Assembly: GCF_019703835.1 (NCBI RefSeq)
Contig: NZ_AP023054.1
Span: 1,178,001 to 1,242,000, forward strand
Source of the DNA: Thaumasiovibrio subtropicus
GTDB taxonomy: Bacteria; Pseudomonadota; Gammaproteobacteria; Enterobacterales; Vibrionaceae
Direction of reading: 5' to 3'
Length of the DNA: 64,000 bases
Position numbers and translations under genes: made by a program. Below, piece by piece: positions 13,934 to 34,563 of the stretch (within the stretch, counting starts at the first letter, position 1; the number at the start of each line of letters is the position of its first letter). The notes beneath the pieces are model-generated. The model saw nothing but the letters and a program-made list of their open reading frames with translations. It did not search any database and was not told where the DNA came from.

Positions 13934-13970
13934 AAAACACCGTTAAGTAAAAGACTTAGCGGTGTTTTTT
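13934..13970 (+). terminator. Rho-independent terminator of bioBFCD
   Basis: AACACCGTTAAGT pairs with ACTTAGCGGTGTT with one mismatch around an AAAG-type loop, followed by a T-run. Confidence 0.92.
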
Positions 13971-14533
13971 GTTTGTTTAGCGTCGAAATTGTTCATATCT
14001 TCACGATAATATTATTGAGAACAGAATACGTCGTATATTAAAACTAAATTTTTAATATTCCTGATTTTAAAAGCGTTTTATTAGTTTCCCACCTGAAATT
14101 AACGACTAATTGAAAGATTGCAATTAAATCGATTACATTTCACAAGTCCGATCACTCTCTTTTCTGAGTAACGCTGTCAAAATATGTAAGCAATGGTATT
14201 CCTATTGAGACGGAAAAGGCGATTTTCTTACACTTTAATCGTGGTAAATGCATGTTCATATGGAATAAAAACTTAAATTAGTGATATTGATCACCATCAA
14301 AAGTGTAAGATTATGTAACGTGATCTTGGTCTCTTATTTGCCGCGCTTATGCTCTAGCTTTTTCTATACTTCTCCTGAATTCACTCGTCATGTTGGCAGG
14401 TAAATATATAAAAACTCGAATATAGAAGTCGTAAATAAAAAGCAAATCTAAAACTTTACTTATTGTTTCACTAAACAATGAGCGGACTCGTTTTATTTAA
14501 AATTCATAGTGCATCGAAATAGAGGGATTTTCT
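13971..14533. other. AT-rich upstream region of the lipoprotein genes
   Basis: About 560 bases without a gene. It is clearly richer in A+T than the genes on either side, especially 14000-14130 and 14400-14500. It holds an overlapping CRP/FNR-type site at 14281-14300. The long AT-rich leader is the kind of region H-NS-like proteins occupy (inference). Confidence 0.55.
14281..14300. promoter_or_regulatory. Overlapping FNR and CRP-type sites
   Basis: TTGAT-CACC-ATCAA at 14287-14300 matches the FNR consensus TTGAT-N4-ATCAA exactly. It overlaps GTGA-TATTGA-TCAC at 14281-14294, the inner core of a CRP site with both outermost bases unmatched. About 240 bases before the lipoprotein start. This implies control by oxygen and possibly cAMP. 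Confidence 0.6.
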
Positions 14534-17500
14534 ATGAGCAGAAAGACCAAGATGCTCACGTTGGCGACGGCAATTTCCTTTGTCCTTGCTGGGTGCGGTG
14601 GAGGTGGAAGTGATTCCGTCGTCGGAGGCGGCGGCGATGGCGGAGGTGGCGGCGGCGATGGCGGCGGCGGTGGTGGTGGTGGTGGCACACCCATCACACT
14701 GACATCAGGCGTGAAGACGGTGATCGGCCAAGCCTTTGATCCCAAAGTGCAAGCTGCCGGTACTGGTGATGCCTCCCAGAATGCGGTGACCGTTACCGTG
14801 GACGTGCAAGATGCGAGCGGGACGTCGTTACTTGATGCACCCATAGCCACGACAACCGATGACTCAGGCCAGTATCAAGTAGACCTACCTGGAAGCTATA
14901 CCTCAACCCCTTCGAAAGTGATTGTTACCTATCAAAAAGATGGCTTTCTTGAAGGCGAAAAAGTGATTCCGTTGGACTCACAGCAGGCGTCAGCCCAAGT
15001 TCCGTTGCCATTATCCCCTGTTGCGACAAACACGGTGAAACGTTCAGATATTGTCGATAACGTCCTAGCCGCAGACGGTGATGGTCGTTGGCACATGAGT
15101 CTGGTTAAAACCAATGATGGTCGACTCGAAATCCGGGAAGGGGCTGCCCCTGCATCAATTGCTGCCGGTGAAGCGGATCTGTTGAATTTATCACTGGTTC
15201 CCAGCACGATTGCCGAAGATGTCGAAGCGATTACAACTCGCGCAGCACATTTTGATTCGAGTGATGCCAGCGATATTCAGAACTTCCCTGGTGAGTTTGA
15301 AGGGGTTGGTGAAACGAATACGACCGTTGATGGTATCGACCTCGTTTCGGATGGCAATGGTACAGAAACCTATCAGTTGATCTCGTCGACCTTTAGCCAA
15401 TTGGTTATCGAAGACCAAGATGGTAACTCACTGCAATTTGATGAGAGCGCATCCACTGCGGCAGATGATCCTGCCATCATCGTGATGCGCGTACCGCAAG
15501 GTAGCTACCCGACTATCACGGAAGATGCCAACTTAGATCTCAATAACTTCCAAGTCCCTATCTATGTGTATAGCGGCGAATGGCGCTTTGTGGGATACGG
15601 TACCTTAACGGACAACACAGGGGCTACGCCATATACCGAAAGTGGTGCCTTTGCCTTTGCCGATGGCGTGACCTATGACGCAACGAGCAATGCATTGGAT
15701 ATGTCCGCCGAGACCAAGCAAGTCTATGTGCGAGTCTTTGTCACGAAAGCGAACGAATGGCTACGTTGGATCAACCTTGATTGGCCGATCCGCACTTCAA
15801 TCAAAGAGATCTGTTTCTTCGGCAAGATCGATTTTGAGAGCCAATCAGAAATCGGTGATCGCTATAACGGTTACTTGAACTTCGAAACGCCGGATAACGG
15901 CTGGGACAATGTGTTGGTCAACAACGGTAACTACCGTAAGACTATCGCGGTTGGTTCAGCAGAGGCCGTTGTGACTGATCCTAACAATTGGGGTCTGTCG
16001 GTCTTTAATGCGCGTGTCGGTTCGGGTGTGACTGAGTACATCCCGGTCGATAACTTCCCGAATCCATTACAAATCGGTGAGGCAAACTGTAATGAAGTGA
16101 ACTTCACGATGCAGAACGACTGGGCATGTTCTATCACAGGTACGGTCACGGATACGAGCGGGAATGGACTCGCCAATGAAGTTGTGACGCTGCGTGGTGC
16201 GAGTGGTCAATCTGTAGCGCTCACGGATGCTGACGGTGATTATCGCTTTGCAGCAAACTGTAGTACCGACCAATCTGTACGCGCCTTGCTACAGACCAAG
16301 CCTGTTACCGCCGCAGATCTAGCCGATGGCAGCCAAGTGGTCGATTTCCAAGAACAGAATCGCGTACCTCAGGTATCACTCTCAGGAGATGATAGCACTA
16401 AGGTTAATGCCGATTACGTCTTGTTCTGGAATGCCTTTGACCCCGATGACCTCACCGCTGAACTCGAGCCAGAAGCACTGACGTGTAACAACGGTGCCTG
16501 CCCAACAGAGTCTGAATTGACGAGTAACCGACTCGTGATGAACTTTGATGCTGCGGGTGACGTGACGATACGGATGACGGTGCGGGATGCTGATAACGGT
16601 GTTGGCATTGATACCAAAGTTATCACAGTTAACCCTGCCGATAACCGCTTACCGACCATCTCTGGTTTCGAAGTGGGACAGGTCATTCCTGATGTCGATA
16701 GCGAAGAGGATCTCGCCCTGTTTGAACGTCTTGATAGTGAAGATGATTCAACCTCAGTGCGCGAAGGTTCTACCGCGACATTGACCGTGAATGCGCAAGA
16801 TCTCGATGGTGATGCACTCACTTACACTTGGACCGGTGTGGGTGACTGTACGACCGCCACCTGTACGCTTGCGACCGGCAGTGTAGGTGATATCGAAGCC
16901 AGTGTGGATGTGAGTGACGGTAAAGCCACAGTCTCTGGGGATGTGGTCGTGAAAGTGGAAGAAGACAAGGCGCCAGTGATTGAGTCTGTGTCGGTTTCAC
17001 CGAGCGAAATTGTCGCCATTGGTGGTGAAAATGTCGCGAACGCTATCCAGCTTGTTGCCGCCTTTAGCGATGACTTTACCCCACGTCGTGTCCTCAACAA
17101 GTCATGGCAGATCTTCCGTATTACCGAAGATGAAGTGTCAACGGCAGCAGAAGAGGCACTGACCTTGAACCTCACCACGGATGAGGATACGGGTGTCACA
17201 AGCATCGATCCGGGCCAATTGGCAGTCGGTCAATATCGCGCACAGATCACGGTGCAAGATATCGACGCGCAAGGCAACCCAGGTAACAGTACTGCTTCTT
17301 CAGCAGAGCAAGGTCTGTTTGAGGTGAAAGACAACCTCGCACCTGTTGTTGATGTGACAGCATCTAGCAACCTGCTGACGGCAACCAGCAGCGGCGGCCT
17401 CGTTGATTTGAGTGTCACAGCAACCGTGAGTGATGACCAAACCGCGTTGGCAGATCTTGAGTTGGATTGGAATGTGTCACCGACACTGACCAATACCGCT

Positions 17501-17956
17501 TCTGCGGATGGATTGACGCTGACAGTTGCAAGTAGCGACCTTCGCCCTGGTACCTATACCTTTTCGCTTGAAGTGACGGATGGCAATAACACCTCAACCA
17601 CAGACACCACGACGGTGACGATTGAGGAGCCAGATGTGCCTGAAGTGACCACGCTTAACGTCACACCGAAACTTCAACAGTCTGACCAAAGTGGCACGAA
17701 CCCGGGAGAAATCGCGGTGAATGCAGCGGCGCGTGCAGACACAGAAGTGAGCTTTGCGTGGAGCGTTACCCCAACATTGAACTTTACTGAAGTCAATGAT
17801 GGAGCAGGTATTCGCTTTGCAGCAGGCAGTGTGGCTGAAGGGCAATACACGGTGTCAGTGATTGCCACTGATGAATTTGGACAAGAATCGGAACCCCAAA
17901 CGACCACCTTTGAAGTCTTCGAAGCGAGCGGCAATGTGGGCGTGGATATCGAATAG
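14534..17956 (+). CDS. Large surface lipoprotein with Gly-rich linker and repeated Ig-like/PKD-like domains
   Basis: 1140 residues. A lipoprotein signal ends at lipobox VLAGC (Cys21), with Gly at +2, so outer-membrane sorting is expected. A flexible Gly-rich linker (about residues 22-52) follows. Then come a carboxypeptidase-regulatory-like segment (DAPIATTTDDSGQYQVDLP), a long unique middle with WRFVGYGTL and WINLDWPIRTSIKE, and a second regulatory-like segment (SITGTVTDTSGNGLANEVVTL). At least four Ig/PKD-like units follow, each starting near NRVPQV, NRLPTI, KAPVIE or LAPVVD and carrying DxDGD-type acidic loops. No catalytic motif seen. Probably extracellular binding or structural. The next lipoprotein starts 27 bases downstream and shares the transcript. 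Confidence 0.8.
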   Translation: MSRKTKMLTLATAISFVLAGCGGGGSDSVVGGGGDGGGGGGDGGGGGGGGGTPITLTSGVKTVIGQAFDPKVQAAGTGDASQNAVTVTVDVQDASGTSLLDAPIATTTDDSGQYQVDLPGSYTSTPSKVIVTYQKDGFLEGEKVIPLDSQQASAQVPLPLSPVATNTVKRSDIVDNVLAADGDGRWHMSLVKTNDGRLEIREGAAPASIAAGEADLLNLSLVPSTIAEDVEAITTRAAHFDSSDASDIQNFPGEFEGVGETNTTVDGIDLVSDGNGTETYQLISSTFSQLVIEDQDGNSLQFDESASTAADDPAIIVMRVPQGSYPTITEDANLDLNNFQVPIYVYSGEWRFVGYGTLTDNTGATPYTESGAFAFADGVTYDATSNALDMSAETKQVYVRVFVTKANEWLRWINLDWPIRTSIKEICFFGKIDFESQSEIGDRYNGYLNFETPDNGWDNVLVNNGNYRKTIAVGSAEAVVTDPNNWGLSVFNARVGSGVTEYIPVDNFPNPLQIGEANCNEVNFTMQNDWACSITGTVTDTSGNGLANEVVTLRGASGQSVALTDADGDYRFAANCSTDQSVRALLQTKPVTAADLADGSQVVDFQEQNRVPQVSLSGDDSTKVNADYVLFWNAFDPDDLTAELEPEALTCNNGACPTESELTSNRLVMNFDAAGDVTIRMTVRDADNGVGIDTKVITVNPADNRLPTISGFEVGQVIPDVDSEEDLALFERLDSEDDSTSVREGSTATLTVNAQDLDGDALTYTWTGVGDCTTATCTLATGSVGDIEASVDVSDGKATVSGDVVVKVEEDKAPVIESVSVSPSEIVAIGGENVANAIQLVAAFSDDFTPRRVLNKSWQIFRITEDEVSTAAEEALTLNLTTDEDTGVTSIDPGQLAVGQYRAQITVQDIDAQGNPGNSTASSAEQGLFEVKDNLAPVVDVTASSNLLTATSSGGLVDLSVTATVSDDQTALADLELDWNVSPTLTNTASADGLTLTVASSDLRPGTYTFSLEVTDGNNTSTTDTTTVTIEEPDVPEVTTLNVTPKLQQSDQSGTNPGEIAVNAAARADTEVSFAWSVTPTLNFTEVNDGAGIRFAAGSVAEGQYTVSVIATDEFGQESEPQTTTFEVFEASGNVGVDIE

Positions 17957-17982
17957 TAACCGGACGATTAAAGGGAAACGTT

Positions 17983-20676
17983 ATGAATAACAGGAATAAA
18001 CTAAGCGCTCTCACTGTTGCGGTACTCGCAGGGCTGAGCTTGGCAGGTTGTAATGGTGGTTCAGCCACTTCGTCGGTAACCGATGTAGCAGGTGGTGGAG
18101 CGGCCAAATCAGAGGTAGCTGCAGTGCAACTTAGTGCCCGTTTTCCAACGGGCGATGCACAAGCAGCGTATATTGGTGACTCACAATACATCAACGTACG
18201 ATTCTACGGTCACGATCTTGTCGGTACTGTGGATGAAGCGATGGATCTCCTTGATGCCTGTAGTGAACAAGATGACAACTACATCGAGTTCATGGGCGAA
18301 ATGATTGACTGCTATCAAGAGACAGGTAATGGTCTTCGCGGTGGCTTTGCAACCGAAGTCGAGCTGAGTCCATCAAGCCCAACGGCGCTGGTTGAACTGC
18401 TACCGGGCAAATACCGTGTTGAAGCGCGCATAGATAACGGCAACGGCCAACTGCGTGAAACGAGTGTTTCGTATGTCACCTTTGGTGAAGGTGACCATAG
18501 CTTGAAACTGCGCGCGATGGAGGCTACGTGGACATTTGAAACTCCGATGCCACTGGCATTACTGAATACCGAAACCAGTGTCGGTGAAGAGGCCTATGAC
18601 TGGGATCCAGAAGAAGAAGGTGTGCAAACAGCCGCAGATGTGCTTGGTATTACCAATGACATTATTGGTGTGCACTTGCCATCAGCTTACACCTTGCCGA
18701 TGCCTTTTGACTACGGCATGGCCGATGGTGATTTTAATGGCCCTTATACTGTGTTGGCAGGCGGATATTGGAATCGCGGCGGGGATTATGCCTTGTCGTC
18801 TATTTTCCGTCCTGTGATGCGTGTCTCAGATGGTGCTGGCGATGAAGAGCAACTCTTCCCTGAATCCGATTACTGGCATGATGACATGCTGATCACTGAA
18901 ATGGTCCCTGTCGATGACGGCGGTGATGGCACTGACGGTGGTGATGGTTCAGATGGCGGTGATGGTGGCGGCGATGCGGTGATGGCGGAAGATGATGCCA
19001 TGATGTATGGCTGTGACGATGCTGACGACCTGCCTGACGACATGATGGCTGTAGGCTGTGAGCGTATGTCTTACATGCAGTGGGCAACGCCGGGTTGGTT
19101 GCTTCAACAGTATGATCCGGATTTAGAAGCGGAAGACAAAAATGAGTATGCGCTTAGCCTTGGTTCTTGGGGTCTAGAGCAACGCCATGAGACAGATACT
19201 TTCGAAACCGACGAGTCTGATGAAGTCTATGAGCAAGTGATCGTTGAAGCGATTCTTGAGCTGGGGTATGCCAAAAAAGCCATTGAAGACGACGAAGACA
19301 ATATCACTGAGCGTGAAATCAACTATGAAGAAGATATCCGCTACTGGGATTCAGAACTTCAAGAGTGGGTAGACAGTGGTTACACCGTGGCGTGGGTAGA
19401 TACTGAAGTCGAGTCAACCTTTGATGACGAAGGCAATGAGGTGAACTGGAAAGACGTCCTCATGAACGAGTTAGGCGCCAGTGAAAATCGCTTTACTGAT
19501 GGCTCTACCATTACGGGTGCGCTGATAGAAGCCGTTATCGTTTCAGAAGGGACGCGCGATGGTTCTGAAGAGAACGAGCGCACCCCTGACCTCTATCTCA
19601 CTAAGATGCTCGACATGCTAGTGGTCGAAGATGAAGGCGATGGTGGTGAAGGTGATGGTTCAGAAGGTGATGGTTCAGAAGGCGATGGCTCAGAAGGCGA
19701 CGGCGATGCAGTAGTGGCTGATGCAGTTTGTACTACCTTAAGCGGTGGTTATGTCGACTACTCTTCTTCTTATGTTTACAACTACGAAGAAGAGCGTTGG
19801 GAAAGCGGCTACCTAAACCGTGCCTTGCTAGATGAGCAGTACAACTACTGGAGCCCATTGCGTCAGCTACAAGACCAGCTGGATAGTGCGGAAGAGAACC
19901 TTGCTGAGCGCAATGACAACATCGCTGTATACCAACAAGATCTTGCCGATCTTACCGACGACAATGGCGGTGTAGACCCTTACGCGGATTACCTAGATGC
20001 GGTAGCAGCACTAGAAGCGGAAGAGGATTCGTTAGGCATTACCGAAGCGGATGATAACCTTGAAGCCCTTCAAGAAGAGCTCGCTATGCTGGAGCAAGAC
20101 TACTGGGATGCAGTCGACGAGTTTGGCGAAGAGTCTGACGAAGCAACAGCGGCAGCAGCGTTAGTGAATGCGAAAGATACGGAAGTCACCGAAGCAAACA
20201 CCGCGCTCGAAACCCTACGTAGCGACAATGTCGATGTGCTTGGCCCACTGGAAGATGCGGTAGATGATGCGCAAATGGCGGACAGATATTGGGAGTTCCG
20301 CACTGTGTATAACAACATCGAGTGGGAAGAAGACCAAGCGGCGCAACAACAGTGGGATATCGACCACTACACCATGGAACTGGCTGATCTTCATGACTTC
20401 TACGACTTTAACCAAGACGGCACAGCAGACGTGTTTGAATTTGGTGTCTTTGTCGAGGACGTTGAGGTTGAGACTGAGTGGATGGAAATGGATGTGGAAG
20501 GTGAGGAGTGGACCCGTTGGGTTTACAGCGTCGTACTGATGGAAGCTGAGGTTCGCGACACCGTGGATGCGTATGTAGAAGATTGGGCAGCTGAAGTGTG
20601 TGTCCAACCATTTACTTTGAACGCATCAGACCTTGATATCGATTACAGTGTGAGCAGTACGGTAGGTATTGAATAA
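17983..20676 (+). CDS. Very acidic lipoprotein with coiled coil and EF-hand-like loop
   Basis: 897 residues. Lipoprotein signal to SLAGC (Cys23). Strongly acidic throughout. Gly/Asp repeats occur at about residues 307-327 (GGDG units) and 552-576 (GDGSE units). Residues about 620-790 are rich in heptad-like Glu/Ala/Leu and read as a long coiled coil (QDQLDSAEENLAERNDN onwards). Residues 808-819 (DFNQDGTADVFE) fit the calcium-binding EF-hand loop pattern at positions 1, 3, 5, 6, 9 and 12. Four or more Cys suggest disulfides. Ends STVGIE; the upstream lipoprotein ends NVGVDIE, a curious likeness. Family not recognised. AAAGGG precedes the ATG. Confidence 0.75.
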   Translation: MNNRNKLSALTVAVLAGLSLAGCNGGSATSSVTDVAGGGAAKSEVAAVQLSARFPTGDAQAAYIGDSQYINVRFYGHDLVGTVDEAMDLLDACSEQDDNYIEFMGEMIDCYQETGNGLRGGFATEVELSPSSPTALVELLPGKYRVEARIDNGNGQLRETSVSYVTFGEGDHSLKLRAMEATWTFETPMPLALLNTETSVGEEAYDWDPEEEGVQTAADVLGITNDIIGVHLPSAYTLPMPFDYGMADGDFNGPYTVLAGGYWNRGGDYALSSIFRPVMRVSDGAGDEEQLFPESDYWHDDMLITEMVPVDDGGDGTDGGDGSDGGDGGGDAVMAEDDAMMYGCDDADDLPDDMMAVGCERMSYMQWATPGWLLQQYDPDLEAEDKNEYALSLGSWGLEQRHETDTFETDESDEVYEQVIVEAILELGYAKKAIEDDEDNITEREINYEEDIRYWDSELQEWVDSGYTVAWVDTEVESTFDDEGNEVNWKDVLMNELGASENRFTDGSTITGALIEAVIVSEGTRDGSEENERTPDLYLTKMLDMLVVEDEGDGGEGDGSEGDGSEGDGSEGDGDAVVADAVCTTLSGGYVDYSSSYVYNYEEERWESGYLNRALLDEQYNYWSPLRQLQDQLDSAEENLAERNDNIAVYQQDLADLTDDNGGVDPYADYLDAVAALEAEEDSLGITEADDNLEALQEELAMLEQDYWDAVDEFGEESDEATAAAALVNAKDTEVTEANTALETLRSDNVDVLGPLEDAVDDAQMADRYWEFRTVYNNIEWEEDQAAQQQWDIDHYTMELADLHDFYDFNQDGTADVFEFGVFVEDVEVETEWMEMDVEGEEWTRWVYSVVLMEAEVRDTVDAYVEDWAAEVCVQPFTLNASDLDIDYSVSSTVGIE
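19636..19710 (+). repeat. 15-base in-gene tandem repeat (GDGSE units)
   Basis: About five units of GGTGATGGTTCAGAA with silent changes (GGCGATGGCTCAGAA). They encode an acidic Gly-Asp-Gly-Ser-Glu spacer. Unit count could vary between strains by slippage without a frameshift. Confidence 0.85.
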
Positions 20677-20728
20677 TACTTGGGCAAATTTGCCCTCGGC
20701 TGCTAGACCTTAAATAAGGTCAACTTAG

Positions 20729-20757
20729 ATCCCGGGCCAGGAAGGTCCGGGACTTTT
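20729..20757 (+). terminator. Hairpin with T-run between the acidic lipoprotein and subtilase genes
   Basis: TCCCGGGCC pairs with GGTCCGGGA around AGGAA, followed by CTTTTT. It either ends the two-lipoprotein transcript or attenuates readthrough into the protease gene, whose start is 17 bases beyond. Confidence 0.8.
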
Positions 20758-20773
20758 TGCTTAAAGGATTGTG

Positions 20774-23446
20774 ATGAAAACACTACGTTCTCTGCTCTTC
20801 TCATTTCTATTCCTATCAACGACTTCTCATGCGGCTTATCTGGTCGGACTCCACTCAGATACCAAGATACCGCCAAACCCATGGCAACTCTCGTCTGACA
20901 TTGCGGTGGATGTTGATGTGTTATCTGCGCACGCTCGTCTGTTAAAAATCTCAGGCGATGACATTGAGCAAGCATTGCCACTGCTGTTAGGGATGCCAAC
21001 TATCCGGTTTGTCGAATATGACGCGTCGATTGATATACCCGCGCCAATAGAGCCCTCAGACAAGACGATCTCTGCATTGCGTAGTGGTGATGCGAATACC
21101 GCGGCATTAACGGGCTATCCTTGGCAACAGCTTGGCTATGATCAATTGACCAATACGGAACGTGAGTGCGACCTCACCCGTATTGGGGTGTTAGATACTG
21201 GTGTGGATTTTGAACACAGTGCGCTATCCGGCCGGTTTGTCGACAATGGCGGTACACCGCTAGGTTATGACGGCATTACCGAGCAACTGGGTGGCGATGA
21301 TCAAAATGGTCATGGCACTCATGTTGCGGGCATTATCGCAGCGCATGGTAGTCAGTTTGAGGGGGCGTGTATTAATGCACGCATTATTCCGCTGCGCTTT
21401 CTTAACGCAACAGGGGGAGGCGACATTTCTGATGCGGTGAAAGCGGTACAATGGGCGATAGACAATGACGTCCATATCATTAACCACAGTTGGACAACAC
21501 CGACTTACACCGAATCTCTTGATACCATTATGGCGAGTGCCACAGAAGCGGGCATCCTACATGTTGTCGCAGCAGGTAATTCAGGCACCAACAATGACAC
21601 CATTGCCATTTATCCTGCCGACTTTGCGCGCACTAACCGAGGCGTTATTTCAGTCGCAAACACCAATAATAGCGGTGAGTTGTTTAACCGCAGTAACTAT
21701 GGGTTATCAAGTACTGATATCGCTGCCCCGGGCACAAGTATTTTCAGCCTAGACTTGAATAACAATACGCGCACGCGTACGGGTACCTCGATGTCTGCGC
21801 CGTTTATCACCGCTTTAGCTGCGATGATTCGCCAGCAAAATGTTAATGCCACACCGCAGCAGCTGCGAGCTATCATCAATGACAATATTACCGTCAGCCG
21901 CGAGTTGCAGCCCGTACTCAGAACGGGGGGAGTCGCGAACGGCCCGCAAGCGCTACAAGCCTTTCAAACCAACCCGTTTGCGTTGTTTGGGATCGATTGG
22001 CAGAACAGTCAATGGCAGATCATCGGCAATCGCTTGAATGAGGCGGCATCAGTATCGATAAATTACGATGCAGTACACCTAAGTGATGAGTCATTGAACT
22101 TTACCCTCATCAATAGCACCACATTGGCACTGACGACGTTGCCAAAAGGGGCAGGGATGATCACCATCCAAAATCAACAAGGCGATACGGATACTCTGTA
22201 TCTCCAGCAGCTCCTTGCATCACCTTCTAATCTTGCACTTATGGTGAATGAGGATGAAGGACTGTTGCTGACTTGGTCATGGCCGAGCGATGCGAAATCG
22301 GTCTCCATTTATCGCGCATTGCCCGACCAAGGGTTTGATTTCTTAGCGACGGTTGAGCAGCCCACCGCCCAGTATCTTGACCTACCGCCCGCGACAGGCA
22401 GTGTACGCTATCGGATGTTTGCTTCTCATCAAGTCTTGCGTCCGTTTACCGATGCGATTGTGAACCGCAATTCAGCCAATACGGCACCGGTATCTGCCGA
22501 TTGGGAAACCTCTCCTTGGCTAACCACGACATGGTCAACGATACCAATCAACCAAGAGATCGCACTGCCTTTGCGTTTCTCGCAAACGGTCGAGAGTGTC
22601 GTACTGACCGATGGCAGTTTGCCGGCGGGGCTTGCGGTGAATGGTAACCAAATCGTCGGTACCCCCTTTAACGAAGGTGAGAGCACTTTTACTTTAGTCG
22701 CCACCTTGGGTGAAAAACGTTATAGCCGCACCTTCACATTGACTGTCGCTGATGCTTGGGTCGTCCCTTGGTTAGATAACGCCGAAATTGCGCCACAAAG
22801 CGGACAGCTCAGTGCCGTAGAACACGTACAGGCAGATAACTACACGGCACTGCACTTTGTCACCACAGGCGATGCAGTGACAACACAAGTGAATATCAAT
22901 ACAAGTGCGGAACTGCTTGCGCTCTCTTTTCAAAATCTGTCGGGGGAGTGGGTGAATGCGAATGCCACCGAGGCCGCAAGTAAAATGACCCGCGCTTTAG
23001 TCACTTTCAGCATCGAAGATCAATCTGTGTTCGACCATAACCGCTCAGTCGGCGAGGTTGAAAGTCGTATGCGGACGGAAGCGGGATCACCACCGCAAGC
23101 CAATATTGCTGAAGCGCCAGATAGTCGCTGTTTTGTAGCGTCTTACCTTTATGCTCAAGATATTGAAAAAGTAGATAATTTACGAAAGTTCCGCGATCAA
23201 ATTCTGTTAAAACTGCCCTATGGTGATGAATTTGTGCATTACTACTACGAAAACTCACCTCTTTGGGTGGAAAAATTCCGTAAAAGTCCAACCTTAACAC
23301 GCACAGTTTACTGGCTGTTGATGCCACTCGCACAGGCTTGGCAGCTCATTGGCTTATTAGTTATCTTCATGCTAATCATGAGCTTAGGTAAACATTGCTG
23401 CCGAAGTTTAAAACATGGGCGTGAATGGCCGCAGAGAAAAGCCTGA
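20774..23446 (+). CDS. Secreted subtilisin-family (S8) serine protease with CFI-box-like C-terminus and membrane anchor
   Basis: 890 residues from the ATG at 20774 (AAGGA five bases before; a GTG directly upstream is an alternative). Sec signal peptide ending near SHAAY, then a propeptide-like stretch to about residue 110. The catalytic triad is visible: Asp141 (GVLDTGVD), His180 (NGHGTHVAG), Ser339 (TGTSMSAP), with oxyanion Asn269 (AAGNSG). Beta-rich modules fill residues about 400-770. The C-terminus has CFVASYLYAQD, LRKFRDQILL and FVHYYYENSP, the pattern of CFI-box C-terminal domains, then a transmembrane helix (IGLLVIFMLIMSL) and a basic tail. Probably anchored and exposed; may process the neighbouring lipoproteins (inference). 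Confidence 0.87.
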   Translation: MKTLRSLLFSFLFLSTTSHAAYLVGLHSDTKIPPNPWQLSSDIAVDVDVLSAHARLLKISGDDIEQALPLLLGMPTIRFVEYDASIDIPAPIEPSDKTISALRSGDANTAALTGYPWQQLGYDQLTNTERECDLTRIGVLDTGVDFEHSALSGRFVDNGGTPLGYDGITEQLGGDDQNGHGTHVAGIIAAHGSQFEGACINARIIPLRFLNATGGGDISDAVKAVQWAIDNDVHIINHSWTTPTYTESLDTIMASATEAGILHVVAAGNSGTNNDTIAIYPADFARTNRGVISVANTNNSGELFNRSNYGLSSTDIAAPGTSIFSLDLNNNTRTRTGTSMSAPFITALAAMIRQQNVNATPQQLRAIINDNITVSRELQPVLRTGGVANGPQALQAFQTNPFALFGIDWQNSQWQIIGNRLNEAASVSINYDAVHLSDESLNFTLINSTTLALTTLPKGAGMITIQNQQGDTDTLYLQQLLASPSNLALMVNEDEGLLLTWSWPSDAKSVSIYRALPDQGFDFLATVEQPTAQYLDLPPATGSVRYRMFASHQVLRPFTDAIVNRNSANTAPVSADWETSPWLTTTWSTIPINQEIALPLRFSQTVESVVLTDGSLPAGLAVNGNQIVGTPFNEGESTFTLVATLGEKRYSRTFTLTVADAWVVPWLDNAEIAPQSGQLSAVEHVQADNYTALHFVTTGDAVTTQVNINTSAELLALSFQNLSGEWVNANATEAASKMTRALVTFSIEDQSVFDHNRSVGEVESRMRTEAGSPPQANIAEAPDSRCFVASYLYAQDIEKVDNLRKFRDQILLKLPYGDEFVHYYYENSPLWVEKFRKSPTLTRTVYWLLMPLAQAWQLIGLLVIFMLIMSLGKHCCRSLKHGREWPQRKA

Positions 23447-23664
23447 CTTTTAGTGCGTTAATTGGGCAGAAAAAGTGTGATCAGTATAACGTTCTGTTTT
23501 CTGCCCTAAAATCAGTTGTAAATTTACTACAAAACTTGAAATTCAGATGCTCATTTTGCTTTAAAGCTGTTTTAATAGCGCCATATTCGGGGTGTGAGTC
23601 ATTTACCCAGTGATTTGCACTATTTAATTTGGTGTTATTTAGAATTTTAGTCTTTGAGGTTGCG

Positions 23665-24298: not shown

Positions 24299-24386
24299 GG
24301 TGAGTTGTCCGAGTGGCTGAAGGAGCACGCCTGGAAAGTGTGTATACGGCAACGTATCGAGAGTTCGAATCTCTCACTCACCGCCA
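24299..24386 (+). tRNA. serX: tRNA-Ser (anticodon GGA)
   Basis: 88 bases including the encoded CCA. The acceptor stem GGTGAGT pairs with ACTCACC, followed by G and CCA (24384-24386). Anticodon GGA at 24333-24335 reads UCC/UCU. The long variable arm (ATACG-GCAA-CGTAT) marks it as serine class II. GTTCGAATC is the T-loop. It is the anchor of the island that follows. The symbol follows E. coli usage for the GGA isoacceptor. Confidence 0.96.
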
Positions 24387-24421
24387 AATTCTAAACCCCA
24401 GCAGAAATGCTGGGGTTTTTT
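24371..24421 (+). repeat. Left island boundary (attL-like): tRNA-Ser 3' end plus terminator
   Basis: TCTCACTCACCGCCAAATTC, a two-base A-rich variable part, then the hairpin CCCCAGCAGAAATGCTGGGG with six T. The same order of elements recurs at 37166-37216 with about five differences. Confidence 0.75.
24395..24421 (+). terminator. Rho-independent terminator after tRNA-Ser
   Basis: AACCCCAGCA pairs with TGCTGGGGTT around GAAA, followed by a T-run. Confidence 0.93.
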
Positions 24422-24478
24422 CGTATCTAGCATCATCACTAGCCTCGGCACCTAGTGTAAAACATAGTTAATGATCAC

Positions 24479-24961
24479 TTATTGGTAATGATTTTCGGGT
24501 TTCAAAGTACTGTCGTAGTTACGAGTGGCATTGACAAGTAAACACCCTATAAGGCCACCAGCTGCCATATATAGCGAGGTGTTTTTAGATTGGCTACACT
24601 GAGCCAAAAGTAAGCCTGCAATAGCACCAACTGCAGCCCCTTGTAATTGCTCACTTGACGGCTTACCGTACAGCATTTTTGAGGCTAAATGTTCACAGTT
24701 ATTACCTAACACCCCATATTTGTTTTCCTTTATAATCAATTGTTCTGCGTGGCTAAGCAGTTCACTTTGTTTCTCTTCACTTAGGCGACTAAATACTACT
24801 TTCACTGGTTTTCCCACCGCATACTCTTCTAAAGCGCAGATTTCAACATTTTCATCTGGAGAGTTGTGAAGTACTCGCCTGTCGCCAAGGTAGATTCCGG
24901 TATGTTCTACGAAAAGCTTTGAACGATAAAGTCGATCACCAACACTAAGATTATTCTTCAT
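24479..24961 (-). CDS. LRAT/NlpC-like acyltransferase-fold protein with Gly-rich hydrophobic tail
   Basis: 160 residues from the ATG at 24961 (AGAGGA seven bases before). LSVGDRLYRSKLFVEHTGIYLGD opens an LRAT-type permuted papain fold. His20 (VEHTG), His32 (VLHNS) and Cys89 in NNCEHLASKML form the expected catalytic set of LRAT/HRASLS proteins, which are thiol acyltransferases or phospholipases. After the domain come two hydrophobic Gly/Ala stretches (GAAVGAIAGLLLA and AAGGLIGCLLV), probably membrane-inserting. It is the first island gene after the tRNA and is divergent from an XRE regulator. The substrate may be a lipid or a protein; role unknown, defence or toxin-like activity possible. Confidence 0.75.
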   Translation of the reverse strand: MKNNLSVGDRLYRSKLFVEHTGIYLGDRRVLHNSPDENVEICALEEYAVGKPVKVVFSRLSEEKQSELLSHAEQLIIKENKYGVLGNNCEHLASKMLYGKPSSEQLQGAAVGAIAGLLLAQCSQSKNTSLYMAAGGLIGCLLVNATRNYDSTLKPENHYQ

Positions 24962-25092
24962 AAATTTTCCTCTATGTTTTAAAGTAACTGAATTCCCATG
25001 TTGCATTCATTTACGTTAGACGTATCTGAATGCATTTAATCTATACCTATGCATTTGGTTGATCAAGTGTTATTTTGTTATTGGTGGTGAAA

Positions 25093-25482
25093 ATGCAAGA
25101 TAAAATGGTTTCTTACTCATCGATTTTGGGTGTGGTCGTCGCGAATAAACGCAAAGAACTAGGCATAGAGCAGAGCGTATTAGCTGAAAAAATGGGCCTC
25201 TCACAAGCTAGCTACAGCCGTCTGGAGTCAGGAAAGTCAACATTCTCTGTTGACCAGATGTTTGAATGTGCCAAAGCGCTTGCTATTGCGCCAGACGAAC
25301 TCTTCAATTCAGTTGTCAATACAGTTAACAATCTTAAGGAAAGTGAACAGGTGTCCGTTCAGGCACAACTTAGAGGTAACGCAACAAAAGCGAAGTCTGA
25401 AGGGGGAAGCAATGTAGGTACTTTCATTGCGGGAGCTGCCTTGGGAGCGTTGATTATTGGGCTCGCAGGTAAATCAAAGTAA
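25093..25482 (+). CDS. XRE-family HTH regulator with C-terminal hydrophobic glycine-zipper helix
   Basis: 129 residues from the ATG at 25093 (the frame extends upstream through TTG/GTG codons). Residues about 10-65 form a lambda-repressor-type HTH: VVVANKRKELGIEQSVLAEKMGLSQASYSRLESGKSTFSVDQM. A linker rich in Gln/Ser/Lys follows, then GTFIAGAALGALIIGLAG close to the C-terminus, long enough to sit in a membrane and spaced like a glycine zipper. DNA-binding domain plus membrane tail is unusual for XRE proteins. Divergent from the LRAT-like gene, which it probably controls and whose tail it resembles. Confidence 0.8.
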   Translation: MQDKMVSYSSILGVVVANKRKELGIEQSVLAEKMGLSQASYSRLESGKSTFSVDQMFECAKALAIAPDELFNSVVNTVNNLKESEQVSVQAQLRGNATKAKSEGGSNVGTFIAGAALGALIIGLAGKSK

Positions 25483-25658
25483 GAAACACAGTAAAAACGT
25501 ATCTAAAAGTCTAAAATTGCCGCCCATCTATTAGGGCGGTATGAATAATAAGCGCTCAATCTCATAATCCCACCCTACCAATTGCCGATTCCCCAATTTT
25601 CCCATATTCTCTCACCATTAATTCTGATGAATAAAACCAACATGAGATAACACTCTGA

Positions 25659-25838
25659 ATGGTAGACCAAATTTTAACCTTGAAAGAGGTGGCTGCTTAC
25701 CTAAAGTTGGCCGAAAAAACAGCATATAGATTAGCAAGTGAAGGAAAGCTTCCTGGTTTCAAAGTTGGCGGTTCTTGGCGCTTCAAACGTGAAGACCTCG
25801 AAGCCTGGATAGAAAAGCAAAAAGGTGTGATTGAATAG
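25659..25838 (+). CDS. Excisionase-family small HTH protein
   Basis: 59 residues. [51 protein letters not shown] is the MerR-like/excisionase winged helix almost alone. Such genes commonly precede type I restriction-modification operons, and this one sits 86 bases before hsdM. It may regulate hsd expression or be the remaining recombination directionality factor of the island; without an integrase the first is likelier. The ribosome binding site is weak. Confidence 0.8.
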
Positions 25839-25924
25839 CCTGTTGGCAAGCATCACCCTCTATCTTTAACCCATTATCGAATTCAACGGTTCCGCATTGG
25901 CTGAACACTATCATTGAGAAAACT

Positions 25925-28594
25925 ATGCAAAAACTGACGCTTAACAAACTGTCTAGTAAGCTATTCAAAGCTTGTGACATCCTACGGGGAAAAATGGATG
26001 CCTCCGAGTACAAGGAATACATATTTGGTATTTTGTTCCTTAAGCGTATGTCGGATCAATTCCTGAAGGATTACCAAGCGAAGGTTAAAGAGCTCAAGTC
26101 AGAAGGGCATGACGATGACGAAATCGAGCTTCTGTTAGAAGATGAAGAGCAGTTTGATTTCTACGTGCCGGAGAAAGCACGTTGGGAAAACCTCAAGCAC
26201 CTGAAAACCAATGTCGGCTCAGGGCTAAACAAAGCGCTTGAAGCATTGGAAGAGAGCAATACCAAGAAAGGCTTGGAAGGCGTACTCAAGCACATTAACT
26301 TTAACCGTAAGGTGGGTAAAAAGCCTATCCCTGATGAGCGTCTGGTTGAGTTTATTCAGCACTTTGACAGCATCCCTCTCTCAAATGACGATTTTGAGTT
26401 CCCCGATCTATTGGGAGCAGCCTACGAATACCTGATCAAATACTTTGCTGACAGTGCGGGTAAAAAAGGCGGTGAGTTTTATACCCCTGCCGAAGTAGTG
26501 CGCTTGCTGGTAGAAATTCTTGAGCCTGCTGAAGGCATGGAGATCTACGATCCCACCTGTGGTTCAGGCGGTATGCTGATCCAAAGCCGCAACTACGTGC
26601 AGGAAACGGGCGGTAACGTTAAGAAAATTCACCTATTCGGCCAAGAAGACAATGGTGGCACCTGGTCTATCTGTAAGATGAATATGATCTTGCACGGAAC
26701 AGGCGGCGCAGACATTGAAAATGGTGACACTCTAGCCACACCACTGCACCGAACTAAAGATGGTGAAGTACGTCCTTTTGACCGCGTCATTGCCAACCCT
26801 CCGTTTTCACAGAACTACAAGAAAGCGGATATGCAGCTCAAAGAACGCTTCAACACCTTTATGCCAGAGTCTGGCAAGAAAGGGGATTTGATGTTTGTGC
26901 AGCATATGGTGGCCTCGCTCAAAGCGAACGGTAAGGCAGCAGTGGTGATGCCTCATGGCGTATTATTCCGTGGCGCAGAAGAGCGTACTTGCCGCCAAGA
27001 CTTTATTGAACGTGGCATTCTTGAAGCTGTGATTGGCCTGCCACAAGGTTTATTTTACGGTACGGGCATTCCTGCCTGTGTGTTGGTATTGAACAAAGCT
27101 GGACGCGAAAACCGTGATTCAGTGCTGTTTATTAATGCTGAACGTGAATATCGCGAAGGCAAAAACCAAAACAGCCTACGTCCTGAAGATATAGAGAAAA
27201 TCACCAGTGTCTATAAAGCTATGCTGGAAGATGAAAAAAAACCAGGCGTCGAAAAATATGCGCGTCTGGTCCACAAAGATGAGCTGGCGCGCGAAGATTA
27301 CAACTTCAACGTTCGCCGTTATGTCGATAACAGCCCAGCACCTGAGCCTCAAAACGTCAAAGCGCATTTAAACGGTGGTATTCCAACTCAAGAAATAGAT
27401 GCGCTGCAAACCACTTGGACTGATTACCCAGGATTGAAAGAAAGCCTGCTCGTTCCACGTTCTAACAACGAGTTCCAAGATTTTGATAGTGAGTTTGAAG
27501 CACTGTCATCGCTCAAGCCGCACATTGAAAGCTTCCCGGCAGTACTGAAAAAACATGCTGATTTCCAAGCTGCTTTGGATGATTGGAAGCAAGACTTTGC
27601 TGGCTTTGAAGCAGTGGGTGACAAAAAGCTCGGTGATGAAGGTGTATTTGCACTGCGCCGCGAATCCCTAAATACCATTGAAAAGCACCTAATGCCTATC
27701 AAACTGCTGAACCAATACAAGGTGCGTGGTGCATTGGCAGATTGGTTTAAAACCCTAGAAGCGGATTTTAAATCTGTCGCTGCTAGCGGCTGGAATGCCG
27801 AGCTTATTCCTGACGAAGTGCTATTCGCCAGCCAGTGCGCAGATGTGGTGGAAGAACTGGAGACCAAACAGGCGCGCATCAGTGAACTACAAGCCTTTGT
27901 GGATGCAGCAGATGAAGAAGACTACGAGCCGACCGATGAAAACCCTGCGCTGCCGTCCGAGTATGTTAAACAGCTGAAAGATGAGTTGAAGGAGCATAAA
28001 GCAACGATCTCAGCAGGGCTAAAAGTATTAATATCGCAGATTAAAGATGCGTTTATTCAGATTAAATCAGAGGTGAAGCTACCAAAAGGCACCAAGCAAA
28101 GTGCTTACACTGCTGGCTTAACTGCCAAGGAGCTTAATTTTGCAATACACACCGAGATCATTGCTTTGGCGGCTGAGCATGATGTGCTTCTAGATAATAT
28201 CGACCTTATCAAAGAGAGTGTTAGAAATGGGACTAGGGCGGCCTTGGAAGTAAAAACTATCGAGGAAAGAATAGCAGCACACAAAGCGTTAGAAGATGAG
28301 TTGAAACAGCTGAAAGCTGAAATCAAGGAAACAGAAAAGCGCCGTGATGAACTGCTTGAGATTGCCCGCGACGCAATTACACCAGAAGAAGCGAAAGTGC
28401 TGATTCTGGAACGATTCAAAACCGAGTTGGATCGCCAATACCAAAACTATGTCCGAGCATTGTTGCTTGATCGTATCGCTGCAATCGAGAACCTACATCG
28501 CAAGTACCAAGTTACCGCAAAAAGTATCATTACCAAGCGAGAGCTGGAAGCGAGCAAGCTGGCTGGCTTTATGAAGGAGCTTGGTTATGAGTGA
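25925..28594 (+). CDS. hsdM: Type I restriction-modification DNA methyltransferase subunit (HsdM), extended
   Basis: 889 residues, far longer than the usual 480-530. The N-terminus ([38 protein letters not shown]) is the HsdM_N helical domain. SAM-binding motif I is DPTCGSGGM from residue 209, and the catalytic motif IV NPPF is at 291, the gamma-class N6-adenine type. [34 protein letters not shown] follows. After about residue 480 there is an additional 400-residue region, mostly helical and charged, with a coiled coil ([25 protein letters not shown]) near the end. The methyltransferase marks the host recognition sequence. It overlaps hsdS by eight bases. Confidence 0.92.
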
Positions 28595-29834
28595 TTTACC
28601 TACGGTCAAAGTGAGTAAGTGTTGCGATATCCTTGATAACTTACGCATACCTCTCAATTCTGAAGAACGAGAGAAAATTAAAGGAAATATTCCGTACTGT
28701 GGAGCGAATGGTATTCAAGGCTATATAAGTGAGTACATCTTTGACGAAGATTTAATACTTTTAGCCGAAGATGGCGGTAATTTTGATGATTATCAGACTC
28801 GCCCTATTGCATATCGTATTTCGGGTAAATCCTGGGTTAATAATCATGCGCACGTCTTAAGGACGAAGGAAGGGTATGATTTTTCGTTTGTTTTTTATTC
28901 ATTGCAGCATAAGAACGTAATCCCGTTCATTAAAGGGGGCACGAGAGCAAAACTTAATCAGGCTGAACTCCGTGAAATAACTATTTGGGATGCTCCGCTT
29001 CCAATTCAGCAACGAATTGGAGAGATCCTTGAGACGATCGATAACCAAATCGACGCCACTCAAGCCCTCATTGACAAATACACCGCTATTAAGCAAGGCA
29101 TGATAGCGGATTTGTTTAGCCGAGGTATCGACCCTGAAACCAAAGCTCTTCGTCCAACGTTTGAAGAAGCGCCAGAGCTTTATAATGAGACGCCGTTGGG
29201 GATGTTGCCGGAGGGGTGGGAAGTTATTGAGTTAGAAAACCTTTTGGATGATGTAACCACTCCAATGCGAAGTGGACCATTTGGTAGTGCTCTGTTGAAA
29301 GAAGAGCTGGTCAGTGAAGGTATTCCCTTATTAGGTATAGATAATATTTTTGTTGAGCAATTCAAGGCTAACTATAAGCGCTTTGTGACTGAGCGGAAGT
29401 TTAGAGAATTATCTCGCTATGCCGTTCGAGAAAGAGACGTGGTCATTACGATAATGGGAACTGTCGGAAGATCGTGCGTTATTCCCGAATCCATAGGGCT
29501 GGCTTTATCGTCTAAGCATTTATGGACAATGACGTTTGATAAGAAGCAGATATTACCTGAACTAGTTTGTTGGCAATTGAACCATTCGCCTTGGGCTGAA
29601 AGTTGGTTTAGGCGTGAATCGCAAGGGGGAGTTATGGATGCAATCCAGTCTCAAACGCTTAAGAAGCTGAAGCTAGTCGTTCCCCCGTCAGCAGAGCAAA
29701 AAGTGATCTATGAACGTTATGCAAATTTAAATAATCATATTGAAGTTAATCAGATCTTATTGGACAAGCTGAAACTTCAAAAGACTGGCCTAATGCAAGA
29801 CCTCTTAACAGGCAAAGTCCCCGTACCCGCATAA
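28587..29834 (+). CDS. hsdS: Type I restriction-modification specificity subunit (HsdS)
   Basis: 415 residues from the ATG at 28587 inside the end of hsdM. Two target-recognition domains are separated by a conserved helix: TRD1 about residues 5-140 ([30 protein letters not shown]), the central spacer [41 protein letters not shown]2 about 210-370, and a closing helix ([20 protein letters not shown]). The tandem TRDs imply a bipartite DNA target, which cannot be predicted here. The TRD parts are more A+T-rich than hsdM, usual for swapped TRDs. Confidence 0.93.
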
Positions 29835-29896
29835 CAAAAAATAAGAAAAATGGCAGCAGGCAAACACCTCGCTGCCAGCAATAAGGATATCAAACA

Positions 29897-32800
29897 ATGT
29901 CAGAGTACCAATTGGTTGAAAAGCCGCTGCTAAACCAGCTTAAAAGCATGGGCTGGGATATAACGGATTTAGGGCAAGGTGTGCCGACCGACCCTACCAC
30001 CAGCTTTCGCAGCTCTTTTCGTGAAGTCATTTTAAAAGACATTTTTAAAACCGCAGTACACCGCATTAATACCACTGATGACGGCAAGCCTTGGCTGACG
30101 GATAGCCAACTGGATATCTTGCTTGATGATGTCACCGACTTTGGTACTCACAAATTACTGGCGGCCAATGAAGAGTTTATTAGCCGTTTGCACAAGTGGC
30201 AGATCGACCGCAACGAGTTGGAAAATGAGGATGACCCAGTAGTTAAGCTGATTGATTTTGATAACTGGGAAAACAACACTTTCACTGCCATCAACCAGTT
30301 CCGCGTTGATACCCCAGGGCTAGGTAAAGAGCACATTCGCCCTGACATTGTACTGTTCGTCAACGGCCTGCCGCTGGTGGTGATTGAGTGTAAAGAGCAG
30401 TCACAGCATTGCTGCAACCCAATGGCAGCTGGCATTGACCAATTGCGTCGTTATGCTGACTTGCGTGAGCCTGAACACAGTAAGCTGCGTGAGGGAGAAC
30501 CCGCTCTGTTCTTTACCAATCAGTTGATGATCAGCACGTTCGGTGATGATTGCAAAGTGGGCACCATCACCTCAAATGAAGATTACTACTTCAACTGGAA
30601 AACCATCTACCCTGACACAGAGCCCTATATCGCACCGGAAATCGGCACCCATCGCAGCCAGGAAAAGCTCGTTCAGGGTATGCTTCACCCACAAAGACTG
30701 CTTGATATCACCCGTTGTTTTACCCTGTTTATGGATACCGACAACGGCCCTCGCGTAAAAGTGATTTGCCGTTACCAGCAATTTCGCGCGGTGCAGAAAA
30801 TCATTGAGCGTATGGAGCAGGGCGAAACGGGCATTCAACGCTCCGGTGTGGTTTGGCACACACAGGGAAGCGGAAAAAGCCTGACCATGGTGTTCTTGGT
30901 GCGTAAGCTTCGTCGCCATCCTGAGCTGAAAAGCTACAAAGTGCTGATGGTCAACGACAGAAATGATCTTGAAGAGCAGCTCACTAATACAGCGGCTTTA
31001 ATTGGTGACAAGGTCGTTGTCATTAAAAATACGAGAGATGCGAAGGTAGAACTAGCAAACGATACGTCAAATACCAATATGGTGATGGTGCATAAGTTTC
31101 GCGAGCAAGACAGTGGTTTCCTACCGGAGTCTGTGCGTAAGCTTTTGTCTAAACAGCTTGCGGAAGCGAAAGAGGCCGGTGATGTTGATCGTATCGAAGA
31201 ACTAGAGTCAGACTTTGATGCAGAGATCGTCATGCATCAGCCTTTTGGTAAGATCAATGAAGGCGAAAAAGTCCTGATCTTAGTGGATGAAGCGCATCGT
31301 ACGCAGCGTGGAGGTAAAGACCGTCCAAGCCTTTCAGATAACCTGTTTGATGCTTTCCCGAATTCGACCCGAGTGGCATTTACAGGAACGCCGCTTATCG
31401 CTGATCACCACACTTATCCAACCTGGAAACGCTTTGGCGTCAATCAAGAAAAAGCCTATATCGACAAGTACAAACTTCAGGATGCGGTTGATGATGGTGC
31501 AACGTTAAAAATCCTCTACGAAGGCAAAACCGCAGACAGTGCGATTTATGACAAAGCGGGGTTTGATACCAAGTTTGAAGATCTCTTTGCGGACAGAACA
31601 GAAGAAGAGCTAAGAGAGATCCGTAAAAAGTACGGTGCGGAAGGGGATATTCTTGAAGCAGAAAAGCGCATTGAGGAAATTGCTGAGGACCTAGTAAAAC
31701 ACTACATAAGGCAGATTCTGCCAGCAGGCTTTAAAGCGCAGGTGGTGTGTTCTTCCAAGCAAGCGGCTATTCACTATCAAACCTATATTGAAAAGGCACT
31801 GGCGAAAGAAATCGAGCTATACAAAAAGCAGCCAGAGCAATGTATCGATAAAGCTTGGCTTGAGCGCCTTGAGTTTTTGAAAACGGCGGTTGTGATTTCA
31901 AGTGATGACACCAATGAAGCAGCATCTTTCACCTACGCCAGAAAGCAGGCTAAAGAGCTAAAAGCAGTCGATAACTTCAAGAAGAAGTTTGATCACAGCA
32001 AGCCAAATACTGGCGTCGCTTTCTTGATTGTCTGCGACATGCTGTTAACGGGCTTCGATGCGCCCATTGAACAGGTGATGTATCTCGACAAGAAACTGCG
32101 AGAGCATAATTTGCTGCAAACCATTGCCCGTGTAAACCGCACCGCGAAAGAGAAAAAACGTGGCTATATTGTCGATTATATTGGTCTTGCTCATCACCTG
32201 AGAGACGCATTGTCTATGTACTCGCAGGATGACCAAGAGGACATTCTGGAAAGCTTGCAAAACATTGATAGCGAAGTGCCGGTTTTGGAAAGTCGTTATC
32301 GTCGTTTGCTTCAGCTGTTTACCGAACTCGATGTTCACAATATCGAAGCATTTGTGAACCAGAAACTTAGTGTGGATGAGCACTATCAAGTGCAACTTCA
32401 GGCGATTTCTGTTTTAGAAGACCCTCGCCAGCGTGACAGTTTCAATGTGTTCTTGAAGAAGTTTCTTCAGAGCATGGACATCATTATGCCGAACTCCTTG
32501 GCAGATCCTTACAAAACGCCGATGTACCAGTTTGTGCATATTCAAGCGAAAGCGCGTCAACGTTATCAAGATGACAGCATGAGCTTCCAAGGTGTGGGCG
32601 CAAAGATTCGTCATCTAGTAAATGAACACCTGATTAGTCTTGGTATTAACCCCAAAGTTAAGCCTATCGACTTGTTCAGTGATGCGTTTATGACCCACAT
32701 GGGAAAAGAACCGGACTTACAAGCGCAAGCCAGTGAGATGGAACATGCTATTCGTAAGCACTGCAAAGTGAATGCGGATGATGACCCAGTATTTCACAAA

Positions 32801-33883: not shown

Positions 33884-34563
33884 TGCACTACAAAGATATC
33901 AAATATTGCTTGAAACAAAGCAAGCGAAAGACCACCAGTATTCTTATCGAACGAGATGGGAGCGTTACTGTGCTTGCGCCGGAAAGCTACGATATTGAAA
34001 AAGTAGAGAGCATCCTTGAGGAAAAACGCAGTTGGATTTATCGCAACCTTGCAGAGTGGGAAGATCTTAACCGCACCAAAGTCGAGCGTGAGTTTGTGAG
34101 TGGTGAGGGTTTTCCCTACTTGGGCTGTAACTATCGCTTAAAGCTGGTGGACGAGCAGAAAGAAGACTTGATCCTGAAAAATGGTTACTTCCTCATGCGC
34201 CGTGATAAAGCGGAATATGGTAGCGAGCTATTTAAACACTTCTATCGCACCAAAGGGCTATCTCGCATTAGTAAACGGGTAGAGCATTTCGCCCCAAAGC
34301 TAGGAGTGGATTATCGTGCAATCCGAGTAATGGAGCTTCAGCACCACTGGGCCTCCTGTTCACCAAAAGGCGACCTGAACTTTCATTGGCGTTGTCTGAT
34401 GGCCCCACTCGCAGTTCTGGATTACATCGTGGTGCATGAATTAGCTCATCGGATTGAGCGTAATCATAATGCTAATTTTTGGAACACTGTTGACAAAATT
34501 GTGCCTGATTACCAAAAACATGTTTCTTGGTTGAAGCATAATGGCGCAGGGATGGATCTTTAG
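33883..34563 (+). CDS. YgjP/DUF45-family metal-dependent peptidase
   Basis: 226 residues. The start overlaps the hsdR stop by one base (TAATG), so it is coupled to the restriction operon. HELAH at 185-189 is the zinc motif, with a following HNANFW as third ligand region. MELQHHWASCSPKGDLNFHWRCLMAPLAVLDYIVVHELAHR is the family signature. Members often sit next to type I systems. A role in turnover of the restriction complex is plausible but unproven. Confidence 0.88.
   Translation: MHYKDIKYCLKQSKRKTTSILIERDGSVTVLAPESYDIEKVESILEEKRSWIYRNLAEWEDLNRTKVEREFVSGEGFPYLGCNYRLKLVDEQKEDLILKNGYFLMRRDKAEYGSELFKHFYRTKGLSRISKRVEHFAPKLGVDYRAIRVMELQHHWASCSPKGDLNFHWRCLMAPLAVLDYIVVHELAHRIERNHNANFWNTVDKIVPDYQKHVSWLKHNGAGMDL

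Follow-up and report, generated by a model that had tools for sequence, protein, structure and literature searches.

Do three neighbouring genes of Thaumasiovibrio subtropicus, two for large lipoproteins and one for a subtilase, belong to a single system, and what might the protease do to its partners? The genes lie in a 64,000-nucleotide stretch of contig NZ_AP023054.1 (positions 1,178,001 to 1,242,000 of the forward strand, hereafter the window) and are called ORF1, ORF2 and ORF3 here. A first-pass annotation made from the sequence of the window had described them as a candidate surface system, and the three consecutive open reading frames (ORFs) were confirmed at the coordinates it gave (Table 1). 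Our comparisons with other genomes establish that ORF1, ORF2 and ORF3 form a cassette, which Vibrionaceae inherit and exchange in one piece. The reading we favour, with a probability of roughly 0.45, is a mobile envelope module whose subtilase docks on or matures two lipoproteins tagged by a common C-terminal tail.

Co-occurrence and mobility of the three genes

ORF2 was present in 11 of 330 Vibrionaceae genomes, with three further matches that were weak, partial and N-terminal. The conserved core of ORF1 was found in exactly these 11 carriers when 326 genomes of the family were searched, and the post-catalytic region of ORF3 was full length solely in the eight carriers sampled among 257 genomes. 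Strong matches to the three genes also coincided in three genomes of a first set of 100 relatives, and a profile search of genome contigs returned only Vibrio sp. Of7-15, which is one of the carriers. Beyond the family, neither 395 genomes of the order, where matches were weak and partial, nor 369 genomes of the class gave a credible match to the module. Searches for ORF2 in plasmid records and for the ORF1 core in phage records and IMG/VR were negative. Co-occurrence was the test that the first-pass annotation had set for its own refutation, and its hypothesis survived, since all 11 carriers hold all three genes.

The arrangement of the genes was equally constant. In every carrier they are adjacent, in the same order and on one strand, and ORF1 and ORF2 are separated by only 17-32 nt. 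The surroundings, which comprise at least seven chromosomal contexts, vary: bioD and alaE flank the module in the window, polB in carrier G008, and surface-polysaccharide genes in five carriers. In G001, a relative of the same genus, bioD and alaE are only ~450 bp apart and none of the three genes is present. In the window, 9.6 kb separates them, and ORF1, ORF2 and ORF3 are the sole genes of this insert. No direct repeats of 9 nt or longer were found at the insertion ends, and we therefore name no insertion mechanism. From species to species, the three proteins had tightly correlated pairwise identities (r = 0.96-0.99, Mantel p 0.0002), which fits inheritance of the three genes as a unit. The description of the genes as a system is upheld by their perfect adjacency and order in 11 species and different contexts, and by the empty site in the sister species.

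Table 1. Coordinates and composition of the module in the window
Feature	Position	Strand	Description
Insertion relative to G001	13970..23565	+	Boundaries approximate
ORF1	14534..17956	+	1140-aa lipoprotein; end GNVGVDIE
ORF1, parts in order			LAGC lipobox, Gly-rich linker, N-terminal beta domain, ~380-aa core, CarboxypepD_reg-like domain, PKD/Ig-like repeats
ORF1 conserved core	15029..16168	+	Restricted to the 11 carriers (326 Vibrionaceae genomes searched)
ORF1 tail codons	17930..17956	+	G-N-V-G-V-D-I-E-stop; one match to the degenerate pattern in this genome
ORF2	17983..20676	+	897-aa very acidic lipoprotein; tail ...TVGIE
ORF2, parts			LAGC lipobox, beta-rich N-terminal domain, variable acidic inserts, coiled coil, EF-hand-like loop, CxQPxxLxASxL, tail
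Hairpin between ORF2 and ORF3	20730..20752	+	TCCCGGGCCAGGAAGGTCCGGGA then CTTTTT; dG -17.3; score reached by 0/200 shuffles
ORF3	20774..23446 (alternative start 20771)	+	S8 subtilase, 890 aa (891-aa form from 20771)
ORF3, parts			Sec signal peptide, propeptide region, catalytic domain, post-catalytic region, CFI-box, C-terminal hydrophobic helix, basic residues
ORF3 CFI-box and C-terminal helix	23129..23446	+	No second CFI-box found in this genome; helix kept in 4/11 species

Two lipoproteins of new families

Export is predicted for all three proteins. The lipobox of the two lipoproteins is followed at position +2 by Gly in ORF1 and by Asn in ORF2. Its Cys was invariant among the homologues (9 of 9 for ORF1, 11 of 11 for ORF2), and Asp occurred at +2 in none. 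Because this Asp is missing, both proteins would be destined for the outer membrane.

ORF1 had been pictured as an Ig-like lipoprotein on a Gly-rich stalk. The PKD/Ig-like matches and the Gly-rich segment after the lipid Cys agree with this picture, but the long stalk is not conserved among the carriers. The protein has a conserved core of ~380 residues (about 166-545) that matches no recognised family, and the PKD/Ig-like repeats come after the CarboxypepD_reg-like domain (residues 533-584). Its length ranges from 1061 to 1679 aa because the Ig-type repeats vary in number. All nine intact proteins have eight Cys besides the lipid Cys. The match to NF038111 was partial (37 of 1700 bits). A profile search with the core found no solved homologue at E<=1, and a fold search of the PDB with ORF1 gave only generic Ig, cadherin and S-layer matches with a TM-score of at most 0.3.

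ORF2 was introduced as an acidic lipoprotein with a coiled coil and an EF-hand loop. All of these features are present in the window and the loop is conserved, but the coiled coil (predicted confidently at about residues 625-800) is restricted to the window and G008. Asp and Glu make up 24.7% of the protein, and the pI is about 4. The EF-hand-type loop has the sequence DFNQDGTADVFE (residues 808-819), and the CxQPxxLxASxL motif is invariant. Apart from the lipid Cys, intact members have six; the count for G604 came out higher because a lipobox-like match lies earlier in its signal peptide. In both lipoproteins, the conserved Cys residues might form disulfides. ORF2 matched no Pfam family, and the search with its profile gave no credible relative of solved structure. 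With 3-row alignments, AlphaFold modelled ORF2 at a mean pLDDT of 40 and ORF1 at 51. Judged by sequence comparison, the ORF1 core and ORF2 are two new protein families, neither of them recognised in the libraries searched.

A conserved subtilase that ends in a CFI-box

The likelier start of ORF3 is the ATG at 20774, which has an AAGGA ribosome-binding site in front. The protein matched the subtilase family PF00082 strongly (4.5e-47; 161.2 bits against a gathering score of 21.8), and its PDB profile matches were subtilisins. The catalytic triad is intact: D141, H180 and S339, together with the oxyanion Asn N269, are invariant in the 11 homologues (890-aa numbering, as below). Three Cys residues are also invariant, namely Cys132, Cys199 and Cys786, the last of which belongs to the CFI-box. 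If Cys132 and Cys199 pair with each other, Cys786 has no invariant partner and is hence probably unpaired. The signal of the window protein is of the Sec type without a lipobox; among the 11 homologues, a single one shows a lipobox-like LCSC there.

The CFI-box (CFI_box_CTERM, NF041770) occupies residues 786-852 and scored 60.2 bits against a curated cut-off of 40. It was matched at E<=0.001 in 10 of the 11 homologues; the copy in G495 is cut short. The four carriers tested have one CFI-box each, that of ORF3. The first-pass annotation had called the protein an anchored subtilase. A membrane helix does follow the CFI-box in the window, but apart from it only G008, G054 and G446 keep the helix, while six intact homologues and one decayed homologue are without it. 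Anchoring is thus a lineage feature rather than a core feature. Where present, the helix is followed by basic residues, which predicts an inner-membrane orientation.

In G495 (locus L085, 6386-14292), ORF1 is split into several frames, the tail of ORF2 is missing and ORF3 has a shortened CFI-box. This seems to be a joint decay of all three genes, with assembly errors as a possible alternative.

Two other identities for ORF3 were considered and rejected. An anti-phage subtilase of the IetAS type is opposed by the score of the IetS/IteS model (22.8 bits against 900), by weak PADLOC matches confined to the S8 part, and by the cassette having no ATPase that could serve as the IetA partner. A GlyGly-CTERM protein, the substrate of rhombosortase, is opposed by the missing GG motif before the helix, where a CFI-box stands instead, and by the absence of a GlyGly-CTERM model among the matches listed.

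Elsewhere, a CFI-box ends a 193-aa protein of G392 (L120) that resembles cold-shock-domain and zinc-ribbon proteins and has no signal peptide. Another ends an unrelated 344-aa protein of G240 (L122) with an export-type signal. The CFI-box is therefore not confined to exported proteases. Our literature search found no paper that names this domain.

A private tail shared by the two lipoproteins

Both lipoproteins had been noted to share a VG(V/I)-D/IE-like ending, and this resemblance is real and conserved across species. The ORF1 tail follows the pattern GN[IV]x[IV]x[IV]E and the ORF2 tail [IV]x[IV]E. In G637 the endings are GNTGIIID and IIID, respectively, with Asp replacing Glu at the end of both proteins. 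Among the 175 ORFs of the collected loci, the ending [IV]x[IV][ED]-stop was found in 21 of the 22 ORF1 and ORF2 proteins, compared with 1 of the 153 other ORFs; the exception in the module is ORF2 of G495. A degenerate DNA pattern for the fuller ORF1 tail matched once per genome, at ORF1 itself, in 10 of the 11 carriers, and the reversed control gave 0 matches. These figures describe the ORFs of the collected loci and a DNA pattern search rather than a proteome.

When the ORF1 and ORF2 profiles were compared, they aligned only over the signal peptide and linker. A common tail on two non-homologous proteins suggests one partner for both, private to the module and most likely the ORF3 protease. 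The uniqueness of the longer ORF1 pattern in each genome argues for such a private reader, and it makes a general export signal a disfavoured explanation of the tail.

The hairpin between ORF2 and ORF3

A strong hairpin stands in the gap between ORF2 and ORF3 at all 11 loci (its score was matched by at most 2 of 200 shuffles), and in most of them it is terminator-like, with a T-run behind it. Different lineages have stems of unrelated sequence. The hairpin ends only about 20-30 nt before the ORF3 start in the window, G008, G054 and G637. This is too short a distance to hold a promoter, so transcription probably arrives at ORF3 by read-through and at a lower level, and the protease would probably be made at a lower level than the lipoproteins. 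In G584, G525, G632 and G539, the gap after the hairpin is long enough to hold a promoter.

The hairpin raises the question of whether ORF3 is simply a neighbour with a job of its own, for example in general periplasmic quality control, so that ORF1 and ORF2 alone would form the functional pair. Its presence at every locus and the room for a separate ORF3 promoter at some of them would suit this explanation. However, all 11 loci keep the synteny across at least seven contexts, and none of the 257 genomes was found to have a full-length ORF3 on its own. The insertion in the window contains exactly the three genes, and all three are broken or shortened in G495. We therefore consider an independent protease very improbable.

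Proposed mechanism and its alternatives

In the module as we picture it, two unrelated acidic lipoproteins from one tightly packed unit would be exported by Sec, lipidated and delivered to the outer membrane. The subtilase would also be exported by Sec, and the hairpin would limit its transcript, leaving little protease per lipoprotein. ORF3 would act from the periplasmic side, where its optional C-terminal helix, with the basic side in the cytoplasm, could keep it in the inner membrane. From this position it would dock on ORF1 and ORF2 or mature them, with [IV]-x-[IV]-[ED]-COOH as a common recognition tag. The candidate reader of this tag is the C-terminal region of ORF3, which includes the invariant and probably unpaired CFI-box Cys. 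Controlled release or maturation by the protease, as the first-pass annotation had suggested, is plausible on the evidence of sequence, since the private tail and the conserved protease fit together. The more specific idea, that the carboxylate tail of the two non-homologous lipoproteins is read by the subtilase through its CFI-box region, as a form of tail-addressed processing or assembly of outer-membrane lipoproteins, is doubtful at this stage.

Several points weigh against this mechanism. Cutting or binding of the lipoproteins by ORF3 is an inference, and no conserved cleavage motif was seen in their linkers. The tail could pair ORF1 with ORF2, or merely end a β-sandwich. The hairpin could mark separate regulation rather than dosage, given the promoter room in four carriers. 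Surface exposure of ORF1 and ORF2 is itself only a proposal. The structure models are too poor for contact analysis, and the 11 carriers are not independent, because three of them are close relatives.

Another explanation follows the first-pass annotation and its idea of controlled release for adhesion or a matrix. ORF1 and ORF2 would be displayed as a pair that binds a partner or in which each binds the other, and ORF3 would act as the switch that sets them free. The variable number of Ig/PKD repeats in ORF1 would suit such a role, and the conserved EF-hand-like loop and the acidity of ORF2 fit the use of calcium. There is also a precedent in Neisseria, where the subtilisin-type protease NalP releases surface lipoproteins (PMC5472700); autotransporters are also released by NalP. 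However, ORF3 has no recognised autotransporter barrel or lipid anchor and would need to reach the surface, and its own anchor, where present, predicts the inner membrane. The Gly stalk is not conserved and holds no conserved cleavage motif, and the fold matches of ORF1 are of the generic Ig or S-layer kind. For adhesion or a calcium-dependent matrix, the support ends at the Ig/PKD domains and the one conserved loop. We regard this explanation as unlikely.

The main rival is a complex like dentilisin of Treponema denticola (PrcB-PrcA-PrtP), in which processing of the partner lipoprotein depends on the protease (PMC8167434). ORF1 and ORF2 would then anchor and chaperone ORF3 at the surface, the tails would be docking strands, and the substrates would be extracellular proteins of nutrient, host or competitor origin. 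The hairpin would leave the lipoproteins in excess of the protease, and the six intact ORF3 proteins without a membrane helix would need a partner in order to stay bound to the cell. However, the denti_PrtP model (NF033595) gave ORF3 only 62.5 bits against a cut-off of 300, the homology being limited to the S8 domain, and PrtP is acylated while ORF3 is not. Furthermore, the C-terminal helix, where present, predicts the inner membrane rather than the surface, and ORF1 with its variable Ig repeats is much larger than an anchor requires. A complex of this kind is possible, although on the unlikely side.

Docking or maturation of tail-tagged lipoproteins by the subtilase remains our preferred reading. 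If tail reading were true, it would give the CFI-box a function. If the tail is an address tag, some Vibrionaceae would own a dedicated processing or assembly route for large lipoproteins of the envelope, and one that passes from species to species as a single cassette. The module is a three-gene unit that includes two protein families not recognised in the libraries used, and it offers a simple genetic route to the role of the CFI-box. Similar protease-lipoprotein pairs matter for surface control in other bacteria.

Genomic neighbourhood

The surface-polysaccharide genes that adjoin the module in 5 of 11 carriers are rfaD-wzz-waa, or wecA-like and ugd, as named by inspection (loci L080, L081 and L082 of G584, G525 and G632; L008 and L079 of G054 and G446). 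This neighbourhood is possibly a common landing site for surface modules.

Downstream of the module in the window lies an island of ~12.8 kb (24384-37207) bounded by a repeat of the tRNA-Ser(gga) flank. The 3' flank of this tRNA gene and the terminator (CGCCAAATTC..CCCCAGCAGAAATGCTGGG) recur at about 37175-37207. Besides an LRAT-domain ORF and an Xre regulator, the island carries a type I restriction-modification set, an ATPase of the AAA type (34803-36221) and a possible HNH protein (36522-37076). At its start after tRNA-Ser (24479-25482), the small LRAT-domain protein (PF04970, 5.8e-11) is encoded on the minus strand and its neighbour, the Xre-type HTH protein (PF01381), on the plus strand. 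The region looks like a defence island, in which the ATPase and HNH pair is Septu-like by eye only.

Comparison with known systems

The nearest known logic for the module is that of the dentilisin operon of Treponema. In both, two lipoprotein genes stand directly upstream of an S8 protease gene, as is the case at 11 of 11 module loci, and an envelope location is predicted. The two differ in that their relation ends at the S8 domain, and in that ORF3 bears a CFI-box and is not a lipoprotein. The lipoproteins of the module are far larger, are of the PKD/Ig and EF-hand types and have a common C-terminal tail, and a hairpin precedes the protease gene. NalP resembles the logic proposed here in that a subtilase acts on surface lipoproteins. 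However, NalP is a lipidated autotransporter, whereas ORF3 has neither a recognised barrel nor a lipobox and is always encoded next to its proposed substrates.

The type VII secretion protease mycosin (MycP) likewise combines a signal peptide with an S8 domain and, as in 4 of the 11 ORF3 proteins, has a C-terminal membrane helix that places the protease on the outer side. The mycosin model TIGR03921 was the best S8 model for ORF3, at 127.8 bits, but this is below its cut-off of 278.75. The flanks of the 11 loci contain no type VII genes by inspection, and ORF3 differs further in its CFI-box and long post-catalytic region. Among the proteins of the CFI-box-CTERM model, which ORF3 matches above the cut-off, it is set apart by a CFI-box that ends a subtilase always encoded with two lipoproteins. 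Overall, we class the module as a variant within the lipoprotein-plus-subtilisin kind, to which it adds two protein families new by sequence.
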